Assembly: GCA_027038965.1 (NCBI GenBank)
Contig: JALWFG010000011.1
Coordinates: forward strand, 124,001-188,000
Source: Candidatus Desulfofervidaceae bacterium
GTDB taxonomy: Bacteria > Desulfobacterota > Desulfofervidia > Desulfofervidales > Desulfofervidaceae
DNA: 64,000 bases
Direction: 5' to 3'
The position numbers and the translations under genes were made by a program. The notes beneath the pieces are model-generated. The model worked only from the letters and a program-made list of their open reading frames with translations, made no database searches and was not told the origin of the DNA. Shown here in pieces: positions 8,476-15,882 of the stretch (the stretch's first letter is position 1; every line of letters begins with the position of its first letter).

Positions 8476-9576
8476 CTAAAATTTAAAGCCCACTTCGGCA
8501 CATACATACCATTTGTGGTTCTGGGACTGTCCCCAGCCGTTTTCAAAGCCATGGTTGTTGTGAACATAGCCACCCTCGGCCCTGACATAGGTATTTTCAG
8601 TTGGATAAATGGTTGGGGTGAAGGTAACGGCATAGATGTCTCCTGCCCCAGCGGTATAAATCTGGCTTTGACATTGGTCAATGTATTCAATCCTTAGGGG
8701 CAATTCAAAATATTTGTTTACCTTGGCAGACACATAAAGCGCGGCCCCGATGGAATGATCTCCCCTTATGCCTTCTTGCCTTCTTAAAAAACTGCTCCAT
8801 TTCCAGTAGTCCATGTTAAAGGCAAGATAAAGGAAGCCAATCTCCTTCTCAGCCACGATACCGGTCAGGGAACGAAGGCCACTTACATGATAGTGATAAA
8901 GGGTAATATCAGTGTCCAAAATATTGGTGCTGATGCCCGTTTCCCAAGCATCATGAGGTTTTAAACCGCCAGGGGATTCATATTCCGTATCATCCAGTCT
9001 GTTCCGATAATATCCAAAATAGGCATCTAAATTAGGACCGCCATATCCTTTGAGGCTGTAGGTTGCCCTGGCACCATAGGCATTGTAGGGCTGTTGAGAG
9101 GCCAATACACCTACAGTAATATTTTTGTTGTTGAAGGTATAGGTGTCTTCATATCCCGCCACCGGTTGTAAAAGCCCTGTTTCTAAAGTGAGATTTTTTA
9201 TTGGGCTTATGGAAAAATCTGCATACTCCACCCTCCAACCAGGGGCACTGTCATCAGGATTGTCAAGCAAAGAGGGTGTTGCTACTCCTCCAAGCCCCAC
9301 ATCCAGAGAAACAGGATAATCTTTGGATTCCAGAGATAGGTCAAATAGGGCGTTGGTGAGGACAAATTTACTTTCCCGGTTTTTGCCATGCCCTGCTCCG
9401 GCATTGTTAGTATAAAAATATCCGCCACTTACTCCGCCTGAAAGCTTAGCTTCCAAATTGGCCACGGTTGTTTTGATTAAGCTTCCTTCAGATTGTTCAG
9501 CCCATGCGGCAAAGGGGAAAACCAATGCGGCAAGTAAGAGTAATCCTCCCATTAATCTCATCAAAGACCTCTTCAT
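8476..9576 (-). CDS. Outer-membrane beta-barrel porin (BBP2/OmpL-like)
   Basis: A 366-residue outer-membrane protein. A clear Sec signal peptide has a Lys/Arg start, a hydrophobic core and an AWA cleavage site at about residue 26. The rest is amphipathic strands rich in Tyr, Gly and Asn, ending in a C-terminal Phe (EVGFKF) as outer-membrane barrels do. The style and the last 60 or so residues resemble the porin at 23122-24126, including the NTYVRAEGGYV-type strand. A GGAGGA site precedes the ATG. Substrate unknown. It lies downstream of feoB, separated by structured RNA. Confidence 0.75.
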   Translation of the reverse strand: MKRSLMRLMGGLLLLAALVFPFAAWAEQSEGSLIKTTVANLEAKLSGGVSGGYFYTNNAGAGHGKNRESKFVLTNALFDLSLESKDYPVSLDVGLGGVATPSLLDNPDDSAPGWRVEYADFSISPIKNLTLETGLLQPVAGYEDTYTFNNKNITVGVLASQQPYNAYGARATYSLKGYGGPNLDAYFGYYRNRLDDTEYESPGGLKPHDAWETGISTNILDTDITLYHYHVSGLRSLTGIVAEKEIGFLYLAFNMDYWKWSSFLRRQEGIRGDHSIGAALYVSAKVNKYFELPLRIEYIDQCQSQIYTAGAGDIYAVTFTPTIYPTENTYVRAEGGYVHNNHGFENGWGQSQNHKWYVCAEVGFKF

Positions 9577-9645
9577 TTACTTCCTCCTTAACAAAGTATT
9601 TTTTAAAATAATGGAACTCCTTCTGAAAAGGCACTCTTTTGTTTT

Positions 9646-9713
9646 ATCACCTCCTTCCTTTGAATAATAGAAAGGCCACAAAGCCCCTTTGTCAGAAAAG
9701 GACCTTCGTGGCC
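9646..9713 (-). promoter_or_regulatory. Structured region and perfect anti-SD match upstream of the porin
   Basis: On the minus strand, GGCCACGAAG (9713-9704) pairs with CTTTGTGGCC (9683-9674), one pair being a G-U. This stem could end the feo transcript. The right arm overlaps a second possible partner: AAAGCCCC at 9728-9721 pairs with GGGGCTTT (9687-9680), so the two stems exclude each other. Further down, AAGGAGGTGAT (9656-9646) is an 11-base perfect match to the 16S rRNA 3' end with no start codon at a usable distance. The porin has its own site nearer its ATG. Confidence 0.5.
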
Positions 9714-9788
9714 CGATTGCGGGGCTTTTAGCATATTGTGTTATACTTGTCAAACAAAAAGTTCTCATGACTAATTTTCCTTTAAATA

Positions 9789-11795
9789 TTAAGCAAAAAT
9801 CCTTCCCATCTGATAAAACAACACAGCCATTGTCCAGCCCACAAACAGACTCCAGCCCACAGCTAATGCCGTCCATTTCCAAGAGTTTGTTTCCTGCTTA
9901 ATCACCCCAATTGAGGCAATGCAAGGGATATAAAGCAGAGACATTACCATAAAGGAAAAGGCCGAAAGCTTAGAAAAATACTTGGGCAAAACTTTATTTA
10001 GTCCCTCTTCCTCTACCCCATAAAGGGTGCCCAAGGTGCCCACCACTACTTCCTTGGCCAAGATGCCAAAGATGAGGGCCACTGCGGCCTGCCAGAAACC
10101 AAATCCAGCCGGCTTAAATAAGGGTGCAAAGAACTTACCCAGATGTCCAATCCAGCTTTGGGCACTGGCATATTCTACTCCAGGGGGCATAGAAGAAAGA
10201 AACCAAATCAAGACCACACCAGATGCAATAATTGTCCCTGCCTTCTTAACAAACATAAACGAACGCTCCCACATGTGCAAAAGCACCCCTTTCAGGGTAG
10301 GCAGCCGATATGGGGGCAGTTCCATAATCAAAGGCGCTGCCTCGCCCTTGAAAAAGATGTTTTTAAACAAAAGTCCAGTCAAAACTGCCACCACAATACC
10401 CAGGGCATACATAACAAAGATGACTGTGCCGGCGTGTTTGGGGAAAAAGGTCCCTGCAAAAAGCACATATATAGGAAGTCTGGCAGAGCAGGACATAAAG
10501 GGATTGATCAAAATAGTCAAAATCCGGTCTTTTTTTGATTCAAGGGTGCGGCAGGCCATAATGCCTGGGATGTTGCAACCAAATCCCAAGACCATTGGGA
10601 TAAATGACTTGCCGTGAAGTCCCAAGGCATGCATGAACCTGTCCATAACAAAGGCCGCCCTTGCCATGTAGCCACAATCCTCTAAGAAACCAATCATCAA
10701 AAAGAGGATGAGAATGTTGGGCAAAAAGACCAGCACCGAGCCTACACCGGCAATGACACCATCACTTAGCAACGAAGAAAACCAATTTTGTCCCAGTAGA
10801 TGCTTGGTAGCCTCTCCCAGCCAGCCAAAAAAGGCGTCAATGTAATCTGCAAAGGGACCGCCCACATCAAAAACAAGTTTAAAGGTAATCCACATAAAGA
10901 ACAAAAACAAAGGGATTCCCAGCCAGCGATTGATTACCACCTTGTCTATTTTATCTGAAAGGGTCAATTTTTCCTCTACAGCGGTTGGTTTACGAAGGCA
11001 TTCCTTTACCAGACCAGAAAGGAAGCCGTATCTTCTTTCAATTAGATAGCTTTCTATGTCCTCACCTAGACGGCCCTCCAGTTCTTTTCTTATGTCATCG
11101 GCTGCCCGGATGATTTTTCCTGTTCCTGCCACGGCCTGAAGCCATTCATTCACTTGGGAGTCGTTTTCTAGGAGTTTTATGGCTAGCCATCGGGACGATA
11201 TGTTAAAGTTTTTATCTTTTTTGGAGTTTATCAAATCTGTTAATTTATTTAACATTTCTTCCACATCACGACCGTAATCAATTTTTAAAGGTACTGGAGT
11301 TCTGCTTTTAAGTTCCAAAATGGCTGTTTTTAATTTCTCAAGCCCTTCCTTTTTGGTAGCCACGGTAGGAATAACAGGGGTATTTAAGACCTGAGAAAGC
11401 TTGTCTATATCTATCTGCCAACCCTTTTTATGCACCATGTCCATCATATTAAGGGCCACCACGACATTGGCACCCATTTCAAGCAGTTCCAGCGTCAAAT
11501 AAAGGTTTCTCTCCAGATTAGTGGCGTCCACAATGGTAACTACTACCTGAGGGTGTTCTTTAATTAAAAAGTCCCTGGCGACACGCTCGTCTAACGAGTA
11601 GGCGGTTAACGAATAGGTCCCAGGCAAATCTACTACATGAATGCGGTTGCCCTGCTCTAAAAATTCTCCTTCCTTTTTTTCCACCGTCACTCCAGGCCAG
11701 TTCCCCACCTTTTGATGGGCACCAGTTAAGGCATTAAACATAGTGGTTTTCCCACTATTGGGATTACCGGCCAGCGCGATTACCAGCTCACTCAT
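9789..11795 (-). CDS. feoB: Ferrous iron transporter FeoB
   Basis: A 668-residue inner-membrane Fe(II) permease with a cytoplasmic GTPase domain. G1 is GNPNSGKTT at about residue 10; the FeoB switch motif VTVEKKEG and G3 DLPGTYSLTAYS follow, and the NxxD box is NMMD near residue 117. The membrane part carries two gate repeats, including IPMVLGFGCNIPG (~400) and the later GILAKEVVVGTLG (~585). It ends without the Cys-rich FeoC-like tail seen in some enterics. A GGAGGAG site precedes the ATG. It closes the feoA-feoA-feoB order. Confidence 0.96.
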   Translation of the reverse strand: MSELVIALAGNPNSGKTTMFNALTGAHQKVGNWPGVTVEKKEGEFLEQGNRIHVVDLPGTYSLTAYSLDERVARDFLIKEHPQVVVTIVDATNLERNLYLTLELLEMGANVVVALNMMDMVHKKGWQIDIDKLSQVLNTPVIPTVATKKEGLEKLKTAILELKSRTPVPLKIDYGRDVEEMLNKLTDLINSKKDKNFNISSRWLAIKLLENDSQVNEWLQAVAGTGKIIRAADDIRKELEGRLGEDIESYLIERRYGFLSGLVKECLRKPTAVEEKLTLSDKIDKVVINRWLGIPLFLFFMWITFKLVFDVGGPFADYIDAFFGWLGEATKHLLGQNWFSSLLSDGVIAGVGSVLVFLPNILILFLMIGFLEDCGYMARAAFVMDRFMHALGLHGKSFIPMVLGFGCNIPGIMACRTLESKKDRILTILINPFMSCSARLPIYVLFAGTFFPKHAGTVIFVMYALGIVVAVLTGLLFKNIFFKGEAAPLIMELPPYRLPTLKGVLLHMWERSFMFVKKAGTIIASGVVLIWFLSSMPPGVEYASAQSWIGHLGKFFAPLFKPAGFGFWQAAVALIFGILAKEVVVGTLGTLYGVEEEGLNKVLPKYFSKLSAFSFMVMSLLYIPCIASIGVIKQETNSWKWTALAVGWSLFVGWTMAVLFYQMGRIFA

Positions 11796-11820
11796 TGGCT
11801 GCTCCTCCTTAATATAGAAT

Positions 11821-12045
11821 TTAAAGGGGCTTTACCAAAATCCGATGGGCCATACCCAGACCTAAACCAAAACGCTTTTCACCCACAGCTATAATTACTG
11901 GCCCGGGACGGCCGTTACTTAATACCCTGATAGTTGTTCCGGGGTAAAGACCCATCCGACTTAACTTTTTGGCCAGACCAAAACCGCCCCTTATATCCAA
12001 AATCTGCACTTCTCTTCCATTTTCTACCATGCTTAAGGGACACAT
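11821..12045 (-). CDS. feoA: FeoA domain protein (second copy)
   Basis: A 74-residue SH3-like FeoA protein that probably modulates FeoB. It shows the family pattern: a leading Leu/Met-rich turn (KKLSRMGLYPGTTIRVLS), then GPVIIAVGEKRFGLGLGMAHRILV. It starts 4 bases after the stop of the upstream feoA with an AGGTGAT site, so the two are co-translated. Two separate FeoA proteins before feoB is a common arrangement in anaerobes. Confidence 0.9.
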   Translation of the reverse strand: MCPLSMVENGREVQILDIRGGFGLAKKLSRMGLYPGTTIRVLSNGRPGPVIIAVGEKRFGLGLGMAHRILVKPL

Positions 12046-12049
12046 CGCT

Positions 12050-12274
12050 TTAAATCACCTCTACTTCCACACAACTTGCTTCATCCTTCCTCAGAGAAAG
12101 GTGGTATCCTTTCACCAATACATCTATAGGGCTGCCCAAAGGGGCCACCTTTTCCACCGCAATTGTTTCTCCAGGTACAATCCCCATCTGCATCAGCCTT
12201 TGCTTTACAACCCCATTTGTTTTTACGGATTTTACCCTGGCCTTTTGACCTTTTTTAAGCGATGTAAGCTGCAT
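12050..12274 (-). CDS. feoA: FeoA domain protein (first copy)
   Basis: A 74-residue FeoA protein with the family motifs LMQMGIVPGETIAVEKVAP and a C-terminal HLSLRKDEASCVEVEV. It differs strongly from the downstream copy, so the two are not a recent duplication. A GGAGG site lies 10 bases before the ATG. First soluble component of the feo transcript. Confidence 0.9.
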   Translation of the reverse strand: MQLTSLKKGQKARVKSVKTNGVVKQRLMQMGIVPGETIAVEKVAPLGSPIDVLVKGYHLSLRKDEASCVEVEVI

Positions 12275-12300
12275 TTCTTAAACCTCCTTAAATTGATATT

Positions 12301-12648
12301 TTATGCCCTATGTAGAAATGTAGAAACAATAGATGCTACTTTAACCCCCAAAAGCACAAAAAGGGCAATAATAAAGGTTTCTATTCCTGCTTCAAGACTG
12401 ATTTCTCGCATAAGTAAGGCTGCACCAAAGTCTGTCAGAATGCAGAAACCAAGTGCACCTGGAAGCCCAAATCTCTTAAAAATTAAGACCATTGCAATGG
12501 TTAAAGGTAAAGAAAAAATGGTGCCAACAATAGCCACTTTAATTAAACTTATCTTAGTAGCCTTACTAATTGCATAAGCCATACCTGCCATACGAGGACA
12601 TACAATAAACAACCCAAAGGCCAGTCCAATTAAGACTAAATCAGCCAT
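12301..12648 (-). CDS. Small membrane protein of unknown function, first gene of feo transcript
   Basis: A 115-residue protein with three predicted membrane segments (about residues 3-22, 37-57 and 88-110) and a short acidic loop (MREISLEAGIE). I do not recognise the family. It begins 37 bases after a strong sigma70 promoter and lies 26 bases before feoA, so it is expressed with the ferrous iron transporter. A role as a Feo accessory membrane subunit is plausible from position only. Confidence 0.75.
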   Translation of the reverse strand: MADLVLIGLAFGLFIVCPRMAGMAYAISKATKISLIKVAIVGTIFSLPLTIAMVLIFKRFGLPGALGFCILTDFGAALLMREISLEAGIETFIIALFVLLGVKVASIVSTFLHRA

Positions 12649-12688
12649 TTTCCCCTCTCTTTATTCAATTATTGAGCCAAGTAGCACT

Positions 12689-12717
12689 CTTATAATCTAA
12701 CCAATAATTTTTGTCAA
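12689..12717 (-). promoter_or_regulatory. Sigma70 promoter of the feo genes
   Basis: On the minus strand TTGACA, 17 bases, TATAAG, 40 bases before the ATG of the small membrane protein: full -35 consensus and five of six -10 bases. No convincing Fur box overlaps it. Confidence 0.8.
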
Positions 12718-12739
12718 GATTTTAATTTTGTTAAAGTTA

Positions 12740-13510
12740 TTAACATCCGGCCATGGACCTTATTGGGAAATAAAGCTCAAATTTGGTTCCCTTTTTCAAT
12801 TCACTTTCCACATGCACCCATCCCGCCTGGGCGTCCATTAAGGCATACACTACGGCCAAACCCAGACCATGATTTCTACAACCCTTTTTAGTAGAAAAAT
12901 AGGGGTCAAAGATGCGCGGTAGGTCTTCGGGTGAGATCCCAGGCCCATTATCCACTACCGTTAAGGTTACAAACTTACCGGGATAGGCATTGGCATGTTC
13001 TAGGCAATCATTCTCTGTTACCGTAACTACAGAAGTCTTGATTGTGATTACACCGCCGGGACTAAGCGCCTGGGCGGCATTTAAAACCAAATTGGTGATA
13101 ATTTCTGTTATGGCCGTGGAGTCGGCGTAAATTAAGGGCAGGGCGGGATCCAAATCCATTTTTATTTTAATTGAGGGTGAAATCATGTCCCTCAACATTT
13201 GCAGATTTTTCTCTACTTCTTGATTGAGGTTTAAACGGCTAGGCCTTAATTGACACCCATTTTTGGTTAAGAGAAGCATCTTTTTTATCATGTCTGTCAT
13301 CTTTTCACAGAGCCGGGCAATGCCAACGCATTTCTTTCTTATCTCTTTATCCAATGTTAGCCTTTGAATGGAAGAAGAATAAGTCCAAATGCCCATTAAA
13401 AGGTTATTTAGGTCGTGAGACATACCGGCTATCATAAGCCTGATAGCCTCCATCCGATGGGCCTGAATGGCCTCAATGCATTTATGCCTCTGGCAAACAG
13501 GCGTCTTCAT
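12740..13510 (-). CDS. Orphan soluble sensor histidine kinase
   Basis: A 256-residue histidine kinase reduced to its catalytic core. The phospho-acceptor is His32 in MSHDLNNLL. The ATP-binding domain has the N box NLVLNAAQAL near residue 142, G1 VDNGPGIS near 193, the F box DPYFSTKKG near 208 and a G2 loop GLGLAVV. Only about 30 residues precede the H box, with two Cys and three His, so no membrane or PAS sensor exists. It overlaps the upstream DUF2325 gene by 29 bases, which suggests that protein supplies the input. No response regulator is nearby. Confidence 0.85.
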   Translation of the reverse strand: MKTPVCQRHKCIEAIQAHRMEAIRLMIAGMSHDLNNLLMGIWTYSSSIQRLTLDKEIRKKCVGIARLCEKMTDMIKKMLLLTKNGCQLRPSRLNLNQEVEKNLQMLRDMISPSIKIKMDLDPALPLIYADSTAITEIITNLVLNAAQALSPGGVITIKTSVVTVTENDCLEHANAYPGKFVTLTVVDNGPGISPEDLPRIFDPYFSTKKGCRNHGLGLAVVYALMDAQAGWVHVESELKKGTKFELYFPIRSMAGC

Positions 13511-13820
13511 GACCTTTCCCCTTCCTTACTAACCATTTACTTAACGCCCTTTTAAATTCATTGACACTAGAACGCGGCAGAAAAAAGGCGGGTTTTCGTT
13601 GCTTTTTACAACTTTCCTTTACTATCTTACAGGCCGTGTGAGAATTGACATCCAGCGGACAGAATACCACATCTACCTGGGCGACAAAGCGACGTAACCT
13701 TTCTTTGCCCCCATTACAATGGCCACAGTGGTGACATAACTGACAACCAAGTCTAACGGCTTCTTCCTTATACCTGCTTACCAATCTATCAAATCCCCCT
13801 ACAATTAAGACCTTGGACAT
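13482..13820 (-). CDS. DUF2325 domain protein
   Basis: A 112-residue protein starting KVLIVGGFDRLVSRYKEEA, the usual DUF2325 opening, with a Cys/His cluster CQLCHHCGHCNGG at residues 26-38 that could bind metal or an iron-sulfur cluster. Later parts match the family (VDVVFCPLDVNSHTACKIVKE). Function is undescribed in general. It has an AGGAGGA site and is translationally coupled to the histidine kinase, so the two may form a metal- or redox-sensing pair. Confidence 0.8.
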   Translation of the reverse strand: MSKVLIVGGFDRLVSRYKEEAVRLGCQLCHHCGHCNGGKERLRRFVAQVDVVFCPLDVNSHTACKIVKESCKKQRKPAFFLPRSSVNEFKRALSKWLVRKGKGHEDACLPEA

Positions 13821-13861
13821 AGGTCTTTCCTCCTGATGGAAATTTTTGGGCCCCTTTATAT

Positions 13862-14596
13862 CTATTCCACTGGACTGACCATTATCTTTTCAGCCATGCC
13901 ATGACCTATGGAGACGCAAACCCCTGATTCTACAGTCAGATAAAAAACGCAACCCAGGTGTTTAGCCGGTCCAGAGGCAGCCTTTATTGAAGCCAGTTTG
14001 ATGTTTTTACCCCTTTCTAGACCGGCCTTTTTAAGCCTTTCCTCTAAGGCAATTCCGCTAATAACGCCTGTCAGTTCGCCTTCAGTTCCGGCCTCAAGCT
14101 GGCAGAGCTGTAAGATGTTATCTCCGATTTTTACCAGTAGTTTGGAGGCCTCTCCTGTGCAAAGTTCGATTTGCTGTCCATTGGCCTCAAGGGTATAAAT
14201 CTCTTCTGCCACATGACCCTTGACCTTTATATTCAATCCCTCCTTTAAACCCAGTTTCTCAAGCCCATCCTTTACCTCTTTCCCGGCTTCAAAACCTTTG
14301 ATTATTCCATTGTCACCAGCCTCTAATGCCAGAAGGTGCTTCTGATTGCCATTTACTTCCACAAGCACCTTGTTGGCGAGTCCCTGAGCCAAGATTACCT
14401 CTTTTCCGTCTCTCTCTACTGCCAACGGCCCCCGATGTTCATGGGTGAGGGTGGATTCAAAAACGACCTCCTTGCCCTCTTCAATGCCCAGTTCTCTAAG
14501 ATATTCTTTTAAATCCCTTCCTCCTTCAATCCTTACTACCTCAAACCTGACCTGTTCGCTCCCTAGCCAATCCGTTAAGCGTTTAACATCAGCCAT
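13862..14596 (-). CDS. Protein with three FeoA-like repeats
   Basis: A 244-residue soluble protein made of three successive FeoA-type units: residues ~20-85, ~95-165 and ~180-242. Each has a Leu-Lys-x-Leu-Gly-(I/L)-x-x-G-K turn (LRELGIEEGKEV, LEKLGLKEGLNI, LKKAGLERGKNI), then a strand with a Cys or Gly and a closing K-(L/V/I)-(L/M)-V strand. Start chosen at 14596 because of an AAAAGGAGGTTT site; an ATG at 14653 would lie inside the preceding gene. The acidic charge and triple repeat suggest a scaffold or metal-dependent binding protein acting with Feo. The repeat reading is mine from sequence; no family name is known to me. Confidence 0.78.
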   Translation of the reverse strand: MADVKRLTDWLGSEQVRFEVVRIEGGRDLKEYLRELGIEEGKEVVFESTLTHEHRGPLAVERDGKEVILAQGLANKVLVEVNGNQKHLLALEAGDNGIIKGFEAGKEVKDGLEKLGLKEGLNIKVKGHVAEEIYTLEANGQQIELCTGEASKLLVKIGDNILQLCQLEAGTEGELTGVISGIALEERLKKAGLERGKNIKLASIKAASGPAKHLGCVFYLTVESGVCVSIGHGMAEKIMVSPVE

Positions 14597-14622
14597 AACC
14601 AAACCTCCTTTTTGTTTATTTT

Positions 14623-15105
14623 TCACGGCAAACGCCGCACCCGGCCGCCACATTTAGGGCATGTCATTTGCCGACAAGGCACCCCTGACTGACCGGTGAA
14701 GATATAGCCACAACTCACGCACACACACCTTTTGTTCCGAGCCTGGTAGTTGAAAAAGCCCCGGCCTATAATGCCAGGTATAGGTAGGGGCTCTTTATAA
14801 AGGCCCTGATTGAAAAGGCGGAGATTTTCCTTTACATTTTCTACCTTGGCCTTAAAGACCTTTACCTGTCCTTGGCCCAAAACGCAAAGGGCGTTAATTC
14901 CAATATTTTTTACAAAAACATTTTTTACCCCTTGATTAACCAACCATTGGGCCACCCTGATACCTACACCCCTTGTCTCGTTTAAATAGGGGTTTTCCAC
15001 AATCCGACCATTTTGGCCATCAGTAAGATAGAAAAACCTTGCCCTGCCAAACCTTTCATTAAGTTTTAGTTCTTGCTTTTTCTGTCTTATTGGAAAGGCC
15101 GTCAT
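14623..15105 (-). CDS. NifX/NafY-type dinitrogenase cofactor-family protein with C-terminal zinc ribbon
   Basis: A 160-residue protein. The first ~110 residues match the dinitrogenase iron-molybdenum cofactor biosynthesis fold (LNERFGRARFFYLTD, then RGVGIRVAQWLVNQGVKNVFVKNIG and a final KVFKA strand). The last 30 residues carry a CxxC...C-P-K-C zinc ribbon (CVSCGYIF and CPKCGG). Members without nif genes are small metal-cluster carriers of uncertain job. No nif genes are present here. An AGGAGG site precedes the ATG. Position suggests iron handling. Confidence 0.8.
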   Translation of the reverse strand: MTAFPIRQKKQELKLNERFGRARFFYLTDGQNGRIVENPYLNETRGVGIRVAQWLVNQGVKNVFVKNIGINALCVLGQGQVKVFKAKVENVKENLRLFNQGLYKEPLPIPGIIGRGFFNYQARNKRCVCVSCGYIFTGQSGVPCRQMTCPKCGGRVRRLP

Positions 15106-15141
15106 TGTTAACCTCCTAAAAAATGTTATAAAACTTAACTT

Positions 15142-15774
15142 TTAGGGCAAAAGAACAGACCAATTCTCACAATATTCCCAATATTTATCACAATTGACAT
15201 CCCAAGGAGAAAAACATAGATATTTCTTATTTTTAAAGGCCTCTTTAGGCAGGATATAAAATATAAACCCCGAGGATAAATAAAGGGCCACCACCACGTA
15301 GTTGATATGCTTAAAACAAGAACTTCTGTGAGAAATAAGCCTTACTACAAAGTATTTGTGCCCATTCATTTGAGTTACTCTAAAACCCACCTTTACTTTG
15401 ATAAGTTTACCGTTTTTCAAGCTTATTTCCGACAACCGGGCATCACAATTTATCTGAGGCCACAGTCCTAGCCCCTCAAGTCTTTCTAAGATAGAATATA
15501 GAGCCTGAGACCTTAAATGCCCTTTTCTAGAAAGGATTTTGCATCTTCTCATCAAAGAAAAAAATTTCTTTCTTCCCTGCAACTTTTCCTTTCGCCAGGA
15601 CAAGAATCCCTTCCCATAAGTAAGGTCGCAAATTTGTCTTATTCTTTCTCGGCTTATCCCGTATTTCTTTGCGATAAGACTGCCATTGATTACAGGGTCC
15701 TGGATGAGCCGATTTAGATCAGCCAAAAAGGCACTTCCGTATTTTCTTTCCATCTTTGCCAACACAGCATCCAT
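15142..15774 (-). CDS. Helix-turn-helix protein of unknown function
   Basis: A 210-residue protein. Residues ~30-55 form a sigma-region-4-like HTH (GSLIAKKYGISRERIRQICDL). The C-terminal half (residues ~105-205) is beta-rich with a K-x-K-V strand and a hydrophobic VVVALYLSSGFIFYILP strand, loosely like PD-(D/E)XK or homing-type nuclease folds, but I see no complete active site. It is the first gene after a sigma70 promoter and a Fur-like site, and may be the regulator of the downstream iron cluster or a domesticated mobile-element protein. It has an AAGGAGGG site. Confidence 0.6.
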   Translation of the reverse strand: MDAVLAKMERKYGSAFLADLNRLIQDPVINGSLIAKKYGISRERIRQICDLTYGKGFLSWRKEKLQGRKKFFSLMRRCKILSRKGHLRSQALYSILERLEGLGLWPQINCDARLSEISLKNGKLIKVKVGFRVTQMNGHKYFVVRLISHRSSCFKHINYVVVALYLSSGFIFYILPKEAFKNKKYLCFSPWDVNCDKYWEYCENWSVLLP

Positions 15775-15803
15775 TTTTACCCTCCTTATAAGAACTTTTT
15801 AAG

Positions 15804-15832
15804 TCCATAACACAAACATGAACAAATGTCAA
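15804..15832 (-). promoter_or_regulatory. Sigma70 promoter of the HTH / NifX / FeoA3 genes
   Basis: On the minus strand TTGACA, 17 bases, TATGGA, 30 bases before the ATG at 15774. The -35 is perfect, the -10 moderate. Confidence 0.6.
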
Positions 15833-15867
15833 GAAATTTAATAAAGTTTATTTTTTTAACTTCATGG

Positions 15868-15882
15868 CAATAATAATTATCA
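15868..15882. promoter_or_regulatory. Fur-box-like site
   Basis: Read on the minus strand, TGATAATTATTATTG matches the 7-1-7 Fur pattern TGATAAT-N-ATTATCA at 12 of 14 arm positions. It lies about 36 bases upstream of the -35 box at 15827-15832, and some 90 bases upstream of the recJ promoter on the other strand. The match is by eye and AT-rich spacers give chance hits. Confidence 0.5.

Follow-up and report, generated by a model that had tools for sequence, protein, structure and literature searches.

A possible two-protein regulator, an HTH/PD-(D/E)XK protein and DUF2325, in an expanded ferrous-iron uptake operon of a Candidatus Desulfofervidaceae bacterium

The window analyzed here is a stretch of 64,000 nucleotides from a Candidatus Desulfofervidaceae bacterium (contig JALWFG010000011.1, positions 124,001 to 188,000). 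On its minus strand lies a feo locus which, judged by its gene content, is an expanded ferrous-iron uptake operon. FeoB, two FeoA proteins and a porin form the predicted transport part; the remaining genes encode a helix-turn-helix (HTH) protein, a NifX-type protein, a protein with three FeoA stretches (triple FeoA), a DUF2325 protein, a histidine kinase core and a small membrane protein. We tentatively propose, with less than even confidence, that this operon is governed by a metal- or redox-responsive regulator consisting of two proteins, the HTH protein and DUF2325. The proposal draws on gene linkage, fold and conserved cysteines, from which we infer metal binding, DNA binding, interaction of the two proteins and the direction of control. 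The feo operon as a kind was already known, as was every protein family in it except the HTH/PD-(D/E)XK protein and the small membrane protein. New are the phylum-wide linkage of DUF2325 to feo, the recurring HTH/PD-(D/E)XK partner and the triple FeoA protein.

We know of no function assigned to DUF2325, a widespread family. A survey of 395 genomes of the phylum revealed DUF2325 in 88. FeoB_C was sought in 80 of these 88, and the resulting counts are therefore lower bounds. DUF2325 was located no more than 8 kb from feoB, mostly less than 4 kb, in at least 47 of the 78 genomes having both. At least 48 pairs within 8 kb were counted in 23 families, and the two genes were always on the same strand (48/48). 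Approximately 0.8 genomes would be expected by chance under a uniform null; this null is simple and the genomes are not independent, and the signal survives any reasonable correction. A DUF2325 scan of genome contigs that started from one single protein gave no matches. Named contigs in which DUF2325 adjoins FeoA/FeoB belong to a Desulfovibrio sp., Desulfobulbaceae, Chloroflexota and a GoM-Arc1 archaeon. An earlier note on this DNA, made from the sequence, had held that the extra genes belong with Feo. This is borne out by the linkage of DUF2325 to feoB across the phylum and of the HTH gene to DUF2325. DUF2325 is not scattered apart from feo in relatives, and the HTH and triple FeoA genes largely are not; the kinase gene and, in most relatives, the small membrane protein gene are. 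The linkage on one strand in 23 families suggests a testable role of DUF2325 in iron homeostasis, in agreement with the iron-responsive Cj1384c of Campylobacter jejuni. Like the window protein, Cj1384c is a short, cysteine-rich DUF2325 protein (7 cysteines, PMC9426514); it responds strongly to iron and has a Fur repression motif (PMC4491227). Unlike the window gene, it is linked to katA and to heme trafficking, with katA and cj1386, a heme-trafficking gene, as its neighbours (PMC9426514).

The HTH protein has few full-length relatives; 12 strong ones were identified in the 395 genomes. For nine of these 12, from six families, the gene is no more than about 3 kb from DUF2325 (genomes G000, G002, G003, G005, G008, G211, G233, G369 and G122). 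G002 and G003 represent other genera of the same family as the window genome, to which the congeneric G001 and a related contig, L081, are added below. In G369, from another family, the genes on one strand read DtxR, FeoA, hypothetical protein, DUF2325, HTH, short open reading frame, FeoA, FeoB. The HTH/PD-(D/E)XK, STAS-domain and DUF2325 genes of G211 overlap head to tail (L145:527-2959), the STAS gene occupying the place of other signalling genes in other genomes. A long palindrome covers the -10 element and leader of the HTH gene in G003 (L049:8089-8127) and is a candidate operator or leader hairpin. It is clear in G003 and recognizable in G002; a search for one operator palindrome shared by every HTH promoter found none.

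The earlier note had the HTH gene right, but its product is not a plain HTH protein, since two domains were recognized. The N-terminal part (about residues 20-60) matches sigma-70 region 4 in a profile match to SigA. Residues 82-210 match the homing endonuclease I-Ssp6803I (PDB 2ost), with a profile E of 0.009, or 2.3e-4 when ten members were used. The AlphaFold2 model of the HTH protein, built from three sequences, is of moderate confidence (pLDDT 71). Foldseek (E 5.4e-4) and VIA-align again matched its C-terminal domain to I-Ssp6803I, the latter at Z 13.2 with 121 residues aligned at an rmsd of 2.5 Å and the next row at 9.3. The VIA-align rows point to a PD-(D/E)XK fold, and no LAGLIDADG row is shown among them, though folds outside this list are possible. 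None of the domain's acidic residues is invariant, or close to it, in ten members compared, and the window protein reads K-V-K at the expected (E/Q)xK position, where the alignment is uncertain. The domain is probably catalytically dead and nuclease activity unlikely, because no acidic residue is conserved among the ten members. The HTH protein shares the fold of I-Ssp6803I over residues 82-210, but differs in its added HTH, in having no conserved acidic residue and in being an operon gene rather than intron-encoded. A reading of the HTH/nuclease pair as a defence system was considered and dropped: PADLOC reported nothing for the window proteins, and the neighbourhood is that of iron uptake. 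PADLOC did report a weak homing-endonuclease match in one relative (E 0.0013) and coiled-coil-type matches to a long form of DUF2325.

The window DUF2325 protein scored 84 bits against the Pfam cut-off of 33.6 and retains the conserved GG...D...SH pattern. An alignment of 25 sequences revealed D50, F53, C54, S60, H61 and K76 as invariant and G8, G9, G33, P55, A63, K68 and C71 as nearly so; in the window's own order C26, C32, C35 and C64 are additionally kept. Besides the conserved C54, H61, C64 and C71, the window protein carries CQLCHHCGHC (CxxCxxCxxC), which in full is common to G005 (L082) and not to the closest relatives. No heme motif was seen, and no PDB entry proved a convincing sequence relative of DUF2325. 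The structural model (pLDDT 88) is alpha/beta with four strands, five not being predicted, and resembles receivers, TIR domains and type II dehydroquinases. Receivers gave the best VIA-align rows (BaeR, Z 11.1), and TIR domains and dehydroquinases scored almost as high. For this fold, DUF2325 was considered as a response-regulator receiver and rejected for missing acidic residues. The acid pair after strand 1 is replaced by G8-G9. No phosphorylated aspartate was found, strand 3 (51-55) ending in C54-P55 with D50 at its start.

Elsewhere, DUF2325 occurs near flavodoxin, bacterioferritin or CbiX-like genes, and signalling genes (kinase, STAS, GGDEF, HD-GYP) recur near it. In G033 a feo operon (L061:9573-14087) contains DUF2325, a FeoA-GGDEF fusion, joining FeoA directly to a c-di-GMP enzyme, and an HD-GYP protein before feoA-feoB; DUF2325 is also near feoB in other genomes of this family. 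DUF2325 adjoins FmdE in G233 (L144) and G211 (L147), in the latter also near CbiM, and these neighbours suggest nickel or cobalt as its possible metal in some of the genomes. CbiX-type proteins are encoded beside DUF2325 in a GoM-Arc1 archaeon (L089:6467-13776), in a Chloroflexota contig (L086) and in G002 (L052:9196-10581). The L089 protein has an FmdE-like part, and those of L052 and L089 begin with a signal peptide-like N-terminus. In G003, ExbB-, ExbD- and TonB-like genes and a TonB-dependent receptor-like gene are located between DUF2325 and feoB (L049:11444-15390); these names were read from the sequences, not from a family search.

In the proposed two-protein regulator the HTH protein would bind the operon promoter, and the Cys/His-rich DUF2325 would switch the HTH protein upon binding Fe(II), an Fe-S cluster or a redox signal. 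The triple FeoA might adjust the GTPase activity of FeoB or hold several FeoB units, and the NifX/zinc-ribbon protein might carry iron or an Fe-S precursor. Strict anaerobes depend on Fe(II), and such a regulator, if real, would help to explain control of Fe(II) uptake beyond Fur in these organisms. The recurring HTH/PD-(D/E)XK neighbour suggests a regulator derived from a tamed homing endonuclease and would, if true, be a second WhiA-like case with another nuclease fold. In Streptomyces, WhiA combines an HTH with a homing-endonuclease domain that is inactive; it and the Fe-S protein WhiB bind DNA jointly, and each depends on its partner (PMC4850268). Akin to this pair, the window encodes a small Cys-rich protein and a partner in which an HTH is fused to a domain of homing-endonuclease type that lacks conserved catalytic residues. 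However, the LAGLIDADG-type domain of WhiA is N-terminal to the HTH, whereas the PD-(D/E)XK-type domain of the window protein follows it. WhiB is unrelated to DUF2325, the controlled genes differ, and co-control is established for WhiA/WhiB but only presumed for HTH/DUF2325. The resemblance therefore appears to be one of logic and not of membership, since the nuclease domains are of different folds and DUF2325 is no WhiB protein. It is conceivable, though on the unlikely side, that the pair represents an undescribed class of regulator, in which a sigma-region-4-like HTH with a domesticated, inactive PD-(D/E)XK domain and a DUF2325 sensor with a receiver-like fold control ferrous iron uptake in a WhiA/WhiB-like manner reached independently. 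The earlier note knew of no described system with these parts, and a search of open-licence literature likewise found no description of such a gene set.

The features of the locus, in the order of transcription, are as follows.

15868..15882, minus strand: Fur-box-like 7-1-7 site TGATAATTATTATTG, upstream of the -35 element; 2 mismatches to TGATAATNATTATCA; putative function
15804..15832, minus strand: likely sigma-70 promoter of the operon (TTGACA, 17 nt, TATGGA), read from the sequence
15142..15774, minus strand: HTH protein gene, first gene of the operon
14623..15105, minus strand: NifX/ORP-type (Nitro_FeMo-Co) protein with C-terminal zinc ribbon (PF02579, 2.7e-16)
13862..14596, minus strand: triple-FeoA protein (PF04023 in three stretches, 7.1e-24); longest open reading frame starts at 14653
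13482..13820, minus strand: DUF2325 protein, 112 amino acids (PF10087, 84 bits)
12740..13510, minus strand: histidine kinase core without sensor (HisKA 29 bits, HATPase_c 81 bits, both above cut-off)
12301..12648, minus strand: small hydrophobic membrane protein, about three transmembrane segments by hydropathy
12050..12274, minus strand: feoA (PF04023, 8.3e-24)
11821..12045, minus strand: second feoA (PF04023, 4.2e-17)
9789..11795, minus strand: feoB (TIGR00437, 1.9e-216, 720 bits)
8476..9576, minus strand: BBP2-type outer-membrane porin (PF07642, 3e-24), in the same position in G001
8463-8430, minus strand: terminator-like hairpin 3' of the porin gene

Open reading frames and family searches confirmed all genes named in the earlier note, on the minus strand and where it had placed them; the porin gene 3' of feoB and the small membrane protein gene (12648-12301) are operon genes which it lacked. 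Transcription proceeds in the order HTH, NifX-type, triple FeoA, DUF2325, kinase, small membrane protein, feoA, feoA, feoB, porin. FeoB is full length, with FeoB_N, FeoB_Cyto, Gate and FeoB_C all above cut-off, and constitutes a Feo system together with the two FeoA genes. Apart from the overlap of the DUF2325 and kinase genes, the genes as far as feoB are separated by 4-91 bases, and the porin gene follows after a gap of 212. This overlap of 29 bases (13482-13510), which the note had reported, is real and has a similar counterpart of 26 bases in G002. An overlap of the NifX-type and triple FeoA genes, by contrast, was an artefact of choosing the first ATG: homologues of the triple FeoA begin with MAxVxRL, and a start at 14596 with a good ribosome-binding site leaves no overlap. 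In a hairpin scan the overall number of terminator-like sites was about that of shuffled sequences, and between the HTH and feoB genes no further ones were found except within reading frames. A single transcript for the whole operon is likely. TTGACA and an AT-rich -10 element also precede the HTH gene in G002 and G003.

The Fur-like site at 15868-15882, right in 12 of 14 defined positions, is the sole site so good in the window. Genome-wide, 34 sites of this quality were counted against 10 in a reversed control, and the genome has one Fur-family gene. The Fur-like site that the earlier note saw above the HTH gene is thus present in the window, but no comparable site was found at the equivalent promoters of G002 and G003, so that it is not conserved there. 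Rodionov et al. (2004, PMC545781) described deltaproteobacterial feo operons with tandem feoA, feoB and an associated porin, proposed Fur-type control for them and also predicted GGDEF and HD-domain genes as members of the Fur regulon. The window locus shares the tandem feoA, feoB and porin with these operons, which were not described with a triple FeoA, NifX/zinc-ribbon, DUF2325 or HTH/PD-(D/E)XK protein. The local site approximates a classical 7-1-7 Fur box, unlike WTGAAAATNATTTTCAW of Rodionov et al. (PMC545781), and their dFUR box TGAAAATNATTTTCA is not enriched in the window.

Several observations weigh against the two-protein regulator. The congeneric G001 is without the HTH, NifX and DUF2325 genes, and the palindrome at the HTH promoter of G003 is not recognizable in the window. 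Most DUF2325 genes of the phylum are without an HTH neighbour, and DUF2325 is hence able to act without one. In some genomes it is encoded beside FmdE, CbiM or CbiX-like genes, which suggests that it handles metals other than iron, or that it is a chaperone and not a switch. The main rival explanation is that DUF2325 handles iron or heme instead of sensing it. DUF2325 would be a cytosolic metal, heme or Fe-S handling protein receiving iron from FeoB, the NifX-type protein a second carrier and the HTH protein a separate, co-travelling regulator. The missing HTH partner of most DUF2325 genes fits this explanation, as do neighbours elsewhere that include CbiX-like chelatases, FmdE, CbiM, bacterioferritin and flavodoxin, and the position of Cj1384c beside katA and heme-trafficking cj1386 (PMC9426514). 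However, the HTH/DUF2325 pair is kept across six families, the kinase, STAS, GGDEF and HD-GYP genes recurring near DUF2325 speak of signalling, and no heme motif was seen. We regard metal handling as an unlikely explanation, though one to be taken seriously.

Slightly less credible, in our judgement, is an ordinary feo operon with dispensable hitch-hikers, in which extra FeoA copies, a porin and lineage-specific genes accumulated but do not work as a unit and are now disappearing. G001 appears to fit such a history: beyond the loss of HTH, NifX and DUF2325, its kinase gene is a stub of 32 residues and the reading frames of triple FeoA and feoB are disrupted, to which assembly error may contribute. 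The kinase is also reduced to stubs in G002 and G003, and the Fur site is not conserved. Yet mere hitch-hiking is hard to reconcile with a DUF2325-feoB linkage far above chance in 23 families, always on one strand, or with the dN/dS of 0.24-0.50 that the HTH, triple FeoA and DUF2325 genes display between G002 and G003.

The kinase has intact H, N, G1 and G2 boxes and only about 20 residues before the H-box region; with HisKA and HATPase_c it is a two-component kinase core. An intact copy is found in the window genome only. Besides the G001 stub, G002 and G003 contain stubs of 70-77 residues, the kinase is absent from L081, and tblastn revealed no C-terminal kinase remains at the relatives' loci. 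The N-terminal stubs with H-box are located at L052:8584-8817 and L049:9810-10022. Over 44 codons compared between G002 and G003, the stub has 7 synonymous changes against a single non-synonymous one (P about 2.5e-4 under neutrality), and because of this ratio the short form may be a functional microprotein. Since the kinase is intact in this genome only, a kinase relay is not conserved, and the kinase is a lineage-specific extra rather than a conserved part of the system. The sensing relay around Feo envisaged in the earlier note therefore stands in so far as the extra genes accompany Feo and falls as regards the kinase. A relay in which DUF2325 detects iron or the redox state and in turn governs the sensorless kinase, so that the latter phosphorylates a response regulator encoded elsewhere, is very improbable: the overlapping genes, the intact boxes, the receiver-like model (BaeR Z 11.1, other receivers) and purifying selection on the stub in G002 and G003 would suit it, but the kinase is stubbed in relatives, no response regulator gene is found among the operon genes from 8476 to 15774, and DUF2325 has Gly-Gly for the acid pair and Cys-Pro for the phosphorylatable aspartate.

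The triple FeoA protein occurs in the family of the window genome (G000, G001, G002 and, in two copies, G003). Its gene is directly upstream of DUF2325 in G003 and separated from it by one inserted gene in G002. A Chloroflexota contig with FeoAB encodes a homologue of 30% identity immediately upstream of DUF2325. FeoA stabilizes GTP-bound FeoB in Bacteroides fragilis (PMC8980893), and several FeoA units could therefore tune FeoB. More than one FeoA domain per chain is likewise found in PgMntR, a DtxR-family protein with twin FeoA domains (PMC4805248); unlike PgMntR, the triple FeoA has no DNA-binding domain.

The small membrane protein (12301-12648) matched no Pfam, NCBIfam or PHROG entry. One homologue is encoded between FeoB and DUF2325 in G009, others away from feo. 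The NifX-type protein belongs to the Nitro_FeMo-Co family (PF02579, 60 bits against 26.3) and ends in a zinc ribbon, CVCVSCGY...PCRQMTCPKCGG. In G002, too, its gene adjoins that of the triple FeoA, as it does at another locus of G003, where this second pair (L050:5662-8940) is located downstream of a TonB-dependent receptor gene.

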